This document shows, one piece after another, positions 4,032 to 33,841 of a DNA stretch of 43,706 bases. The stretch's first letter is position 1. The number at the start of each line of letters is the position of its first letter. Source of the DNA: Pseudokineococcus marinus (GTDB lineage: Bacteria; Actinomycetota; Actinomycetes; Actinomycetales; Quadrisphaeraceae); the NCBI RefSeq assembly GCF_013004605.1, contig NZ_JABEMA010000004.1, positions 1 through 43,706 on the forward strand, in the 5' to 3' direction. Position numbers and translations under genes: made by a program. The notes under the pieces were generated by a model. That model did no database searches, had not been told where the DNA came from, and saw only the letters and a program-made list of their open reading frames with translations.

Positions 4032-4331
4032 ATGTCTCACTCAGCTCAACCGTCCTCACACCTGGGCGCTGGCGAGGTGCTCATCCAGGTGGTGAAGCTC
4101 CTCGTGTGGCCCGCCGCAGTCTTCGGCTCGGTCGTGCTGGGGTTGCCGCGCCTCGGTGAAGCGATCGCTGGGCAGGAGACGGACGTGGCCTTCCACTTGG
4201 AGACGGGTCTCGGCTTGAGCCTCGGCATCAACGTCTTCCTAGGAGGCGGGCTGCTCGCATCCGAGCGGCTCCGCCGGCGAGCCGAGGGGCGGCTCTCGGC
4301 CTCGGTGCAGCCGCCCGGGAGAGCCCATTGA
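4032..4331 (+). CDS. Small two-TM membrane protein
   Basis: A 99-residue protein with two hydrophobic segments, about 16-40 (VLIQVVKLLVWPAAVFGSVV) and 57-76 (LGLSLGINVFLGGGLLA). They are separated by a short acidic loop and followed by a basic tail RLRRRAEGR that should be cytoplasmic. No family recognised. It is the first of two small plus-strand membrane proteins in the accessory region. Such genes beside an integrase often alter the host envelope or block superinfection; that is inference. A longer ORF runs antisense but is compositionally a shadow. Confidence 0.6.
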   Translation: MSHSAQPSSHLGAGEVLIQVVKLLVWPAAVFGSVVLGLPRLGEAIAGQETDVAFHLETGLGLSLGINVFLGGGLLASERLRRRAEGRLSASVQPPGRAH

Positions 4332-4426: not shown

Positions 4427-4975
4427 ATGGAGGCGTCGGAGCTGATCCTCATGCTGCTGCTGCTGGGCACCACGGCGGCCTTCTTCTACATGCTGATCGT
4501 CGTCATGCCGAGCCTCGCACGCACTCGCTTCACGATCCGGCTCTACGACGCGCTGCGTGAGCTCGACCGACTCACCGAGAGCCCGCGGTTGGCCAAGCAG
4601 CCTCGTCTGCTGGAGGTTCGCCAGCGCATCCTCGCGCTCATGAGCACGCCGACCCCAATCGGGGCGCGGCCACTGCTGCGCGCCTACCGCTCGATCATGA
4701 CGGGTGAGGCGCAGAGCCAGATGGAGTCCATGCCCAAGCCCGAGCATCTCGGCCTCACCACCGCGGAGAGGAGCACCGTCGCACGCTGCAACCGGGTGCT
4801 GGTCTTCGAGCTGACTCGCAGCGCCTTCCTCGGCAGCGTCGTGTGGCCAGTCCTAGTGCCCGCCTGGTGGATGGCGCGTTGGGTGCTGTCCGGGCGACGT
4901 CCTGTGCCCAACGCTGCAGTCGTCGTCGACCGCACGGTCAGCAACCACCGGGACGACTTCTTGCACGTCCGCTAG
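4427..4975 (+). CDS. Membrane protein with N- and C-terminal TM segments
   Basis: A 182-residue protein. The ATG at 4427 is chosen because GGAGGTGG lies six bases upstream; an earlier in-frame start would add only an Arg-rich stretch. Residues 4-26 are a strong TM helix (LILMLLLLGTTAAFFYML) and about 128-153 a second (LGSVVWPVLVPAWWMARWVL), with a helical, charged domain of about 100 residues between them. No enzyme motif seen. Downstream is a strong terminator. The gene follows the two-TM protein by about 95 bases and may share its transcript. A role in envelope modification or exclusion is possible. Confidence 0.72.
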   Translation: MEASELILMLLLLGTTAAFFYMLIVVMPSLARTRFTIRLYDALRELDRLTESPRLAKQPRLLEVRQRILALMSTPTPIGARPLLRAYRSIMTGEAQSQMESMPKPEHLGLTTAERSTVARCNRVLVFELTRSAFLGSVVWPVLVPAWWMARWVLSGRRPVPNAAVVVDRTVSNHRDDFLHVR

Positions 4976-30708: not shown

Positions 30709-32298
30709 TCAGAAGCCGATCGTGGCCAGGTCGCCGCCGCCGGCGGCGTCGGCGGCCGCAGCGGCGGCCAAGACGTCGGACTGCGGCAGCGCCATCGGGG
30801 CGGGCGCCTCGCCGAAGCGGCGCAGCCCCCACACCGCGAGCGCTCCGCCGACGAGCGGGGTGATGTCCTCGCCGCCCTTCGCGCGGGCGAAGAGCAGCTG
30901 GTCGGACGTGCCGCGCCGCTGGGCGGTGCGGACGGCGTCGTTGAGGCGGACGTCATCGCGGTGCGCGAGCAGCCCGTCGTTGAGGGCGTCGGTCCACCCG
31001 CTGCAGGCCTCGACGAGCTCGCCGTAGGTGGTGACGGCCGGCTCGATGCCTGCCTTGCGGAGGTCCGGCAGGAGCGCGGCGGCGGGGCCCTTGGCGTCGA
31101 GCACGAGCGCGCACGGGTCCCACTTCGCGATGAGCCCGAGCAGCCGGTCGACGACCCACCCGGTGCCGCGCTCACGCTCGACGACCTCGACGCGGATCCG
31201 CCCGGACGGGGTCCACCCGGCGACCATGACGGCCGTCGAGGAGCGCACCGGGTTGGTGTCGACGGCGAGAGCGACCGGGTCGGTGATGGGCTCGTCGTGG
31301 TCGGCGAGCTCGCGCCACCGGGCGAAGTCGAGGGCGCCGCCGGCGGCCTGCTGCTCGACCGGCCACGCGCCGACGCCCATGCGCTCGACGGCGAAGCCGC
31401 GGCGGGTCATGTCGGGCCGCTCCGCGTCGATGCCCGCCCACGACAGCCGGTAGCCCAGCGCCGGGTTGGCCGTGGCGATCGCGTCGTCGTCGTCGACGTC
31501 GGCCTGCTCCGGGTTGTCGCCGGGGGAGGACCACTCGCCGTAGAAGAGCGACGGGTCGCCGCCGGCGAGCGCGCGGTTGCGGACCCGGGTCAGGGTGAGC
31601 CCGTCGGGGTGCTCGCTGACGTCGACGGCCGACGCCGCGTAGATCAGCTGCGGGTTCGGGCGGGCGGCCATCGTCGGGCGCAGCGCGTTGACCTGCGCCG
31701 CCGGGGCGTACATGGCCTCGTCGAAGACGACGAGGTCACCGGAGAAGCCGCGGCCGCCGGACTTCGTGCGGGTGCGGAACTCGATCGTCGCCCCGGTGCG
31801 CAGGCGGATCGCCTGCTCGCCGTTGGCGAAGCGGAAGGACCGCGACGGGTCGCCGGGCAGCAGCTGCTTGCGCAGGTCGCGGTGGGACTCGAAGAGCCGC
31901 CGCAGCCGGGCGAAGTGCTTCCCGGCCGTCGAGGCCTCGTGCGCGGAGTGCACGACGAGCTCGTCGCCGAGCAGGTACAGCGCCACGGCCTCGCGGGCCT
32001 CGAGCACCGTGCCCTTGCCGTTCTGCCGGGGCACGACCAGCCCAGCCGTGCCGGCGGCCCACCGCAGCGGCGGGCCCTCGCCGTCGTCGTCCCCGGCTGG
32101 ACGCTCGCCGAGCATCATCTTCAGCGACCACGCCTGCCACGGGTCCAGGCGCATGCCCACGGACTCGCACCACGCGACGGCGTCCTCGCCGAGGCCGTAG
32201 TCAGCGCCCGGCGGGGTCCACAGCACCCGGGGCCGCTGAGCCCCGTGCCGCGGCCTCGCGGGCCTGACGGCGGCGGGTGAACTCGTTGGCGTCGACAC
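30709..32298 (-). CDS. terL: Terminase large subunit
   Basis: A 529-residue packaging motor. GTG 32298 is backed by AGGAGG six bases upstream, although it places the start 98 bases inside the small-subunit gene; GTG 32226 is an alternative. The ATPase has Walker A PRQNGKGT (90-97) and Walker B LVVFDE (189-194). The RNase H-like nuclease shows D347 in LAVDTNP and D401 in LVLDAKG. It cuts concatemers and drives DNA into the head. The GKG in place of the usual GKT is a small deviation. Confidence 0.9.
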   Translation of the reverse strand: MSTPTSSPAAVRPARPRHGAQRPRVLWTPPGADYGLGEDAVAWCESVGMRLDPWQAWSLKMMLGERPAGDDDGEGPPLRWAAGTAGLVVPRQNGKGTVLEAREAVALYLLGDELVVHSAHEASTAGKHFARLRRLFESHRDLRKQLLPGDPSRSFRFANGEQAIRLRTGATIEFRTRTKSGGRGFSGDLVVFDEAMYAPAAQVNALRPTMAARPNPQLIYAASAVDVSEHPDGLTLTRVRNRALAGGDPSLFYGEWSSPGDNPEQADVDDDDAIATANPALGYRLSWAGIDAERPDMTRRGFAVERMGVGAWPVEQQAAGGALDFARWRELADHDEPITDPVALAVDTNPVRSSTAVMVAGWTPSGRIRVEVVERERGTGWVVDRLLGLIAKWDPCALVLDAKGPAAALLPDLRKAGIEPAVTTYGELVEACSGWTDALNDGLLAHRDDVRLNDAVRTAQRRGTSDQLLFARAKGGEDITPLVGGALAVWGLRRFGEAPAPMALPQSDVLAAAAAADAAGGGDLATIGF

Positions 32299-32665
32299 CG
32301 CCCGCCTCCTCGTCGGCGTCCTGGCCCGCCGCGGCGGTCGTCAGCTGGCCCAGCAGGTGCCGCAGCCCGGTCGCCGTCTGCCGCGCCTCGACCATCGCGT
32401 TGCCGACCTGCAGCACGAGCGGCTCCCCCTCGCGGGCGGGGAGAGAGATCTGAGCCCACGTCTCGCCGTCACCGTCGAGCACCCGGTCGAGGTGCTCGAG
32501 GCGGTCGACCATGCGCGCGGCCTCCATAACGAGGAGCCGCCGCGCCGTCGTTACGGTCCCGGTCGCCGTGAGCTCGTCGTAGAGCGCCCGGCCCTGCGGC
32601 GCGAGACGCGCTACGGCGGTGGAGAAGACGTCCCCGCCGTCGTGCTCGACGTCGTCACCGTCCAC
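32201..32665 (-). CDS. terS: Terminase small subunit (P27-like)
   Basis: A 154-residue protein from GTG 32665, with GGGAGG seven bases upstream. The core (LAPQGRALYDELTATGTVTTARRLLVMEAARMVDRLEHLDRVL) matches P27-family small subunits, then a strand pair (WAQISLPAREGEPLVLQVGNAM) and helices. The C-terminal 40 residues are Ala/Gly/Arg-rich. It recognises the packaging site, which should lie nearby; a nested palindrome lies just upstream at 32722-32787. Confidence 0.8.
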   Translation of the reverse strand: MDGDDVEHDGGDVFSTAVARLAPQGRALYDELTATGTVTTARRLLVMEAARMVDRLEHLDRVLDGDGETWAQISLPAREGEPLVLQVGNAMVEARQTATGLRHLLGQLTTAAAGQDADEEAGGVDANEFTRRRQAREAAARGSAAPGAVDPAGR

Positions 32666-32721
32666 CGCTACGCCTCCCGCTCATCCGGCTCGGGCGTTCG
32701 ACCCGTGGGGAGAGATTTCCT

Positions 32722-32787
32722 GGCTGGGCGCGGGGTCTAGGCGCCGGCTCGCTGGATTTTCTAGCGGTCCGGCGCTGCGCCCCAGCC
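32722..32787. repeat. Nested imperfect palindrome, possible cos or packaging site
   Basis: Outer arms GGCTGGG (32722-32728) and CCCAGCC (32781-32787), middle arms GCGCCGG (32741-32747) and CCGGCGC (32769-32775), and an AT-rich centre GGATTTTCTAG (32754-32764). It lies between the HNH nuclease and the small terminase, where HK97-like phages carry cos. A terminator is the other reading. Confidence 0.45.
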
Positions 32788-32791
32788 GGTC

Positions 32792-33115
32792 TCACCAGTC
32801 CCGGCTGGTCACGGGCCGCCGCGAGCGCTGCACCGGCACGCCGGTCAGGGCCGGGCGCAGGTGGTCGCGGGACCCGTCACCCCGGGACCGGTTGCACGGT
32901 GAGTGGAGCAGTCGGTCCGCCTGGTGCCCGCCGTGAGCCCTCGCTCGGCCGTGGTCGGCATCAAGCGTCCCCGGCTGGGTCTGCGGGTACATCGGCCGCC
33001 CGCACCACCAGCACGGCGTTCCGTCCGGTGTGACGCGCAGCAGGTAGGCCCGGCGCTGCTGGTGGCGGTAGCCCAGGCCTCGCGCGGTGGAGCTCGTCGG
33101 CTTACCCACGCTCAC
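32792..33115 (-). CDS. HNH endonuclease beside terminase
   Basis: A 107-residue nuclease from GTG 33115. Residues C35 and C38 (CWWC) hold zinc with C74 and a His, and LDADHGRARAHGG with HSPCNRSRGDG forms the ββα-metal HNH site (D54-H55, N75). In HK97-type and many actinophages a small HNH protein next to terminase is required for cos cleavage. A free homing nuclease is less likely, given the position as first late gene. Confidence 0.83.
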   Translation of the reverse strand: MSVGKPTSSTARGLGYRHQQRRAYLLRVTPDGTPCWWCGRPMYPQTQPGTLDADHGRARAHGGHQADRLLHSPCNRSRGDGSRDHLRPALTGVPVQRSRRPVTSRDW

Positions 33116-33160: not shown

Positions 33161-33194
33161 AACCCGCCGACTAGGCAGACGGGTGCTGTTGGGA

Positions 33195-33223
33195 AGTGTG
33201 GCATCACCCAGCGTCTACGGCAA
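33195..33223 (-). promoter_or_regulatory. Candidate late promoter
   Basis: Minus strand TTGCCG (33218-33223), a 17-base spacer, then CACACT (33195-33200). It faces the HNH and terminase genes. The -10 match is weak. Confidence 0.3.
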
Positions 33224-33232
33224 GAACCCGCC

Positions 33233-33238
33233 TACGGT
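33233..33238 (+). promoter_or_regulatory. Candidate -10 box for a leaderless moron transcript
   Basis: TACGGT fits TANNNT and ends seven bases before the ATG at 33246. There is no ribosome site between them. No -35 is seen. Confidence 0.35.
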
Positions 33239-33245
33239 GCGCGCC

Positions 33246-33680
33246 ATGGATGCTCTGCTGGTTGCCCTAGCGGCTGCCGTCCTCGGCGCCTACCTCGGCC
33301 ATCGTGGCTGGTTGCGACAGGCCAGGGCCGAGCACTACGCCGCCTTCGTCACCAGCGCTCTGACGACGCTCCGCTTGCGCATTGAGAGGGATCACTACTC
33401 AGGAGATAAGCAGGCCATTCTGGACCTCCAAGAAAATATGCGTGCTTTCCAGATGGTCCGCATGTTTGCCGGTCCGGAAGTCGAGGCAAGCGCCCAGCAG
33501 CTTTTCACCGAAATGACGACCGTCAGTCAAATGACGTCCATGGAAGCGACTGGCCGTGTCGGTGCGGCCGTCGACGCCTTCCGGGAGGATGCCCGCCAAG
33601 AGGTGGTGCCCCTCTTCCCCTGGCGGCTGTGGCGTCAGCGCGTTGAGGTTCGACCTGAGCAGTCCCGAGAGAATGTCTGA
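33246..33680 (+). CDS. Membrane-anchored moron of unknown function
   Basis: A 144-residue protein encoded against the strand of its neighbours. Residues 3-20 (ALLVALAAAVLGAYLGHR) are a TM anchor; the rest is a charged helical domain (AEHYAAFVTSALTTLRLRIERDHYSGDKQAILDLQENMRAF). The DNA is clearly less GC-rich than around it: positions 33421-33480 hold 32 G or C in 60, against roughly three quarters elsewhere. The ATG at 33246 starts right at the anchor. The 3' end overlaps the convergent HTH gene by 46 bases. Recent acquisition and expression in the lysogen, perhaps for exclusion, are inferred. Confidence 0.8.
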   Translation: MDALLVALAAAVLGAYLGHRGWLRQARAEHYAAFVTSALTTLRLRIERDHYSGDKQAILDLQENMRAFQMVRMFAGPEVEASAQQLFTEMTTVSQMTSMEATGRVGAAVDAFREDARQEVVPLFPWRLWRQRVEVRPEQSRENV

Positions 33681-33841
33681 GCTTCGACGTCCAGAATATC
33701 GTCAGCCGCCCAGAGAGACGAGCGACCGCGTCGCCCCCGCGCCTTGAGGAGGCCGCGACGTTGCCAGTCGCGCACGGTCGCCGGGGACACGCCCGCTAAT
33801 AGGGCGGCGTCCGCCGTCGTGAGAAGCGCGGGCCCGCTCAT
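33635..33841 (-). CDS. MerR/excisionase-like HTH protein
   Basis: A 68-residue DNA-binding protein from ATG 33841, overlapping the previous stop by ATGA. Residues 6-45 (LLTTADAALLAGVSPATVRDWQRRGLLKARGRRG) are a winged HTH_17 domain, the type found in excisionases and small phage regulators. It may be the excisionase or a switch protein; distance from the integrase in the window is large, but the two would be near each other on the circular genome only if the element were short to the right. Confidence 0.8.
   Translation of the reverse strand: MSGPALLTTADAALLAGVSPATVRDWQRRGLLKARGRRGRSSLWAADDILDVEAQTFSRDCSGRTSTR

Follow-up and report, generated by a model that had tools for sequence, protein, structure and literature searches.

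Actinophage genes that are expressed from the prophage and block other phages are known (PMC7542560). In Sbash (gp30/31), CarolAnn (gp43/44) and Butters (gp30/31) these exclusion systems consist of two genes, one for a partner with four transmembrane segments (TMs) and one for a cytoplasmic protein (PMC7542560). On the plasmid side, KilB of the Streptomyces plasmid pIJ101 is a transfer-related product with a role in plasmid spread, judging from the title of Pettis et al. 2001 as cited in PMC1249576. The actinobacterial −10 element has the form TANNNT, as established in Mycobacterium tuberculosis, where leaderless transcripts account for 26% of the genes with a primary start site (PMC3898074).

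Here we describe a small gene, ORF 33246–33680, in a stretch of 43,706 bp that we call the window; it is an entire contig of a 3.6 Mb draft genome in 578 contigs. Like the Sbash, CarolAnn and Butters genes, it would be a lysogeny-linked accessory gene with a membrane component, but its product has a single TM, and no sequence similarity to those exclusion genes was detected. A RexB-like system would combine four TMs with a partner gene, and neither the four TMs nor a recurrent partner was found. Since the cited actinophage systems have two genes and four TMs, the window gene would be of a different kind. The best overall explanation is that it is a single-gene moron, expressed in lysogeny and hindering incoming DNA, and we give this reading not quite an even chance. 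The identity, the expression signal and the architecture of the protein are very likely as described below; an exclusion-type function, which we infer, is possible but rather doubtful.

A temperate phage and its low-GC gene

The window represents a temperate phage, or a prophage, that has no close relatives. Its phage genes include a tyrosine integrase (hence a temperate phage), an endolysin, minor tail proteins, a major head protein, a portal protein, terminase subunits and an HNH endonuclease, and the early DNA-metabolism genes are found on the minus strand in the right part of the window (Table 1). Terminase identity reaches 42% with the best match in IMG/VR and stays below 40% among named phages, and no terminase relative was found in genome contigs. 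A tRNA-Asp (gtc) gene at 571–658 on the minus strand adjoins the integrase gene and could be the attachment site; a search for exact repeats of at least 15 bp shared by the first 1.8 kb and the part beyond 36 kb gave none. At the packaging end, a gap (32666–32791) separates the HNH gene from the terminase small subunit gene. In Corynebacterium phage Dina a related HNH gene is the final gene of the linear genome, so that the cohesive-end site may be in this gap. Near the integrase there is a second cargo site with two small membrane-protein ORFs (4032–4331 and 4427–4975, both on the plus strand); they match nothing in Pfam or PHROGs, and sit in the second-lowest GC trough of the window (66%, from 4327).

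Table 1. Position and strand of the features discussed
Feature	Position	Strand
Tyrosine integrase	713–1735	+
Terminase large subunit	30709–32298	−
Terminase small subunit	32201–32665	−
HNH endonuclease, opens the packaging/late block	32792–33115	−
Low-GC segment (62%): promoter region, ORF and HTH gene tail; approximate extent of foreign-like DNA	33170–33704	
TACGGT, TANNNT-type −10 box seven bases before the ATG; predicted leaderless promoter	33233–33238	+
144-amino acid single-TM protein of an unnamed actinobacterial family	33246–33680	+
HTH (MerR/HTH_17) protein, 68 amino acids, convergent to ORF 33246–33680	33635–33841	−

In this temperate actinobacterial phage, the proposed moron would have the HNH/terminase block on one side and the convergent end of the early operon on the other. 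A preliminary description of this DNA had already called it a membrane moron between the early and late operons, and from its sequence it does appear to be a single-TM accessory gene that has an expression signal to itself. The position of the ORF, the drop to 53% GC over 33421–33480, the TACGGT box, the missing ribosome site and the 46-base overlap with the HTH gene are all as given there. The ORF had also been called the only plus-strand gene in the right 38 kb, which agrees with our gene survey by PHROG matches: right of about 5 kb these fall on minus-strand genes only, and the plus-strand ORFs starting at 4032 and 4427 are just beyond the 38-kb stretch.

GC content is 53.3% in 33421–33480 and 62.3% in the whole ORF, compared to 75.0% in the window. 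The lowest-GC 435-bp stretch of the contig is 33291–33725 with 61.4% (mean 74.9, sd 3.0), and the 60-bp and 200-bp minima of the window are also inside the ORF. As is expected of a moron, the gene thus has a composition unlike that of the flanking phage genes. The maximum-likelihood low-GC segment (log-likelihood ratio 23) takes in about 75 bases upstream of the ORF and the last ca. 23 codons of the HTH gene. That gene has its stop at 33635, so its last ca. 15 codons are the ones that overlap the ORF, and its Pfam HTH_17 domain ends at residue 51, before the overlap. An arrival of foreign-like DNA beside the HTH gene, giving the HTH protein its tail, would fit. The low GC had also been taken to indicate a recent insertion, and here we disagree: GC3 is below that of the long neighbouring ORFs in 19 of 20 family loci (Wilcoxon P=1e-5), which makes low GC3 a family trait that gives no date for the insertion into the window phage.

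ORF 33246–33680 is a real coding gene. With GC of 0.70/0.46/0.71 at the three codon positions, and GC3 of 0.72 versus 0.97 in the phage genes, its codon-position signal is weak, as would be the case for a spurious ORF in an AT-rich intergenic spacer. However, homologues align to it in frame with soluble-domain scores well above decoys, and the family alignment yields a confident fold. Homology already rules a spurious ORF out, and we consider the chance of one negligible.

A predicted leaderless promoter

There is no Shine-Dalgarno sequence ahead of the ATG, and neither a sigma-70 promoter with a −35 box nor a terminator was found at the ORF. As predicted from the sequence, the TANNNT-type box would set the transcription start at or beside the ATG, and a leaderless mRNA would then be read from the prophage, independent of the early and late operons. 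The gene, on the strand opposite to both neighbours, would thus have the separate promoter expected of a moron. TANNNT sites are scarce in this DNA, with only 10 on both strands in 43.7 kb at 75% GC. Four of the 10 sit 5–8 nt ahead of an ORF start (33246 on the plus strand; 5511, 3894 and 443 on the minus strand), counting ORFs of at least 40 codons and spacings of 4–9 nt. The three minus-strand ORFs may be further prophage-expressed genes; the one starting at 443 carries an Excalibur domain.

A leaderless start is also frequent in the protein family described in the next section. Six of 21 members have TANNNT at leaderless spacing (P=3e-8; background of 0.9% at arbitrary ATG/GTG codons of their loci), and so do six of 27 further, new members (P=2e-6), one of which has an identical TACGGT six bases ahead of its ATG. 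Since these fractions are about the ordinary actinobacterial leaderless rate, they point to a working promoter and not to a special property of the family. The claim that the gene has its own expression signal therefore gains from the comparison, in that TACGGT fits the −10 element of a leaderless mRNA and recurs in relatives.

In M. tuberculosis, toxin-antitoxin genes typically have leaderless mRNAs (PMC3898074). One could therefore think that the ORF and the convergent HTH gene form a two-gene module in which the ORF is the toxin or the antitoxin, the more so as the two overlap and the HTH protein matches Pfam AbiEi_4 (E=4e-4, below the cut-off). But the genes are convergent and not co-transcribed, the HTH protein is better explained by HTH_17/MerR, and no HTH or other partner recurs next to family members, so we regard such a module as very unlikely.

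An unnamed family and its surroundings

On sequence grounds, the protein belongs to a large unnamed actinobacterial family with a single TM that is absent from the libraries searched. No Pfam model matches any member, and PHROGs, NCBIfam and PADLOC gave scattered, weak matches only and no family model. When its sequence alone was used as query, no relative came up among phages, plasmids, viral contigs or genome contigs; scans with the relatives as queries gave none either, and neither 50,697 phage records nor IMG/VR yielded a homologue. Of 297 genomes of the order searched with the single sequence, only five matched, two of them doubtfully. Two matches, in genomes G005 and G028, are weak but credible, both over the soluble domain; two of four order-level matches (L005 and L006) cross stop codons and look like chance. 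Profiles from G005 and G028 led to a further genome, G087, and in the next step to 28 of the 345 class genomes, where some weak matches are spurious.

The window copy reaches 34.8 bits over its soluble domain, compared to 10.5 for the best of 2,000 shuffles (close set of eight). In a leave-one-out test of the soluble domain (21 members, 2,000 shuffles each), 20 of 21 score above all decoys; shuffled decoys lose helical periodicity, and the score margin is wide. Membership of G371b is unconfirmed, with 156 of 2,000 decoys scoring as high. Besides a homologous soluble domain, the window copy has the other hallmark of the family, an N-terminal TM followed by positive charges, and it also shares a W-R-x-R...Y..F stretch, a V..F/LA.x.E....A stretch and an F...ARxxL end. 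It differs in having the shortest linker between TM and domain of the 21, and is 11–29% identical to the others. The family can be very common: in the genus of G503, members are found in 89 of 101 genomes, with up to ten copies each.

AlphaFold2 on the family alignment gave pLDDT 85 and pTM 0.68, with predicted helices at residues 2–48 (a long helix, its first part being the TM), 54–74, 77–95 and 98–120. The TM is at about residues 3–18, with the hydropathy peak at the extreme N-terminus (residues 1–17), and a predicted cytoplasmic helical bundle follows at about 20–120. Net charge is −1 over the two residues preceding the TM and +2 over the 17 that follow it; with arginines in this position the helical domain should, under the positive-inside rule, be cytoplasmic. 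The earlier view of one TM plus a charged helical domain is borne out, while its "unassigned fold" gives way to a predicted membrane-anchored four-helix bundle. Its suggestion of an envelope protein is weakened as far as exposure to the envelope goes, given the probable cytoplasmic location of the helical domain. The PDB entries matched are four-helix bundles of a generic kind, mostly chemoreceptor and sensor domains (Z ∼11, below the informative level for helical bundles), so the fold gives no pointer to function.

Class-wide, a tyrosine integrase is found within 8 kb of nine of the 20 other members, against an expectation of 0.43 (P=7e-11), with a mild bias because some of the nine were seen by eye before distances were counted. 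Among the members closest to the window copy the proportion is five of seven. The copy-rich genus shows no such excess (1/20 members vs 2/20 control regions), and the link to mobile elements thus holds for a part of the family only. This part, which includes the nearest relatives of the window copy, is mobile-element cargo, and another part is chromosomal. As for immediate neighbours, members adjoin a relaxase gene (G005), TIR and phage-capsid genes (G028), a DEAD/ResIII helicase and a DUF5131 gene (G393), or a DNA methylase (G517). A recurrent partner gene next to members was looked for and not found, which suggests a stand-alone unit, with the protein acting alone or with a host partner. Two of the loci are worth describing. 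In G028, a small element (L012, 7160–10780) about 2 kb from an integrase contains a capsid gene, a TIR-domain gene and a family member, and is possibly a phage satellite with defence cargo. In G371, at least two family-like single-TM genes stand next to other TM genes in a low-GC island (L058, 4401–8944).

The abundance in one genus, mostly far from integrases there, is what one would expect if the window gene were a host-derived, housekeeping-like or sensory membrane protein, i.e. a chromosomal paralogue carried as neutral cargo without a phage role. The likeness of the bundle to ligand domains of chemoreceptors and sensor kinases would agree with this, but those matches are below the informative level and have the opposite topology. 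In addition, the genome of the window has no second copy, few genomes of its order matched at all, and the closest relatives are mostly in mobile elements. We therefore think a host-derived protein of this kind somewhat unlikely.

Comparison with KilB and possible function

Among families of known role, only KilB came near. KilB of pIJ101 (NC_001387) resembles the window protein in size and in layout, with an N-terminal TM, an R-rich stretch and helices, as well as in the profile of the TM region and over the whole length. Here the profile-profile probability is 87%, with about 150 columns in order, compared to at most 21% when the soluble columns are shuffled. This looked strong, but membership in KilB failed the control without the TM: the score drops to 13.7 against a circular-shift maximum of 12.7 (probability 1.7%), KilB as a single sequence gives 2.4%, and soluble-domain similarity to the window family is not above controls. 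With the score at noise once the TM is cut, we treat common ancestry with KilB as no more than possible. The genomic setting also differs. KilB sits in the plasmid spread region (spdA, spdB), i.e. in a transfer/spread cluster, whereas the window gene is at the junction of phage packaging and early genes. It is worth noting that on the Streptomyces plasmid loci L070 and L074, kilB has flanking genes whose annotation reads Pycsar system effector family protein. If the family were distantly related to KilB and consisted of growth-modulating membrane proteins, the window copy would alter the membrane or the division site of the lysogen and would be harmful if overproduced. Intramycelial spread has no obvious use to a phage, and we consider this relationship unlikely.

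For a single-gene moron, the sequence and the structural model predict that the N-terminus would cross the membrane outward and hold the four-helix bundle at the inner face. In the lysogen, the bundle might bind a membrane-proximal partner needed for DNA entry or transfer, and this could lower infection by other phages or the entry of competing elements. A broader version, in which the unnamed family includes plasmid KilB as a distant member and forms a toolkit shared by plasmids, integrative elements and phages, with the window gene as an exclusion factor, is improbable; if it were true, the family would control the entry or spread of DNA at the membrane.

The ORF is probably ordinary cargo, a new member of a common unnamed family, and the interest rests mostly on this family, the single gene being modest. 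The family is common, often with several copies per genome in one genus, and yet it is missing from the curated libraries searched. The leaderless box offers a simple rule for finding such genes in GC-rich prophages, and the family itself provides a connection, open to testing, of phage cargo with integrative elements and perhaps with plasmid spread proteins.
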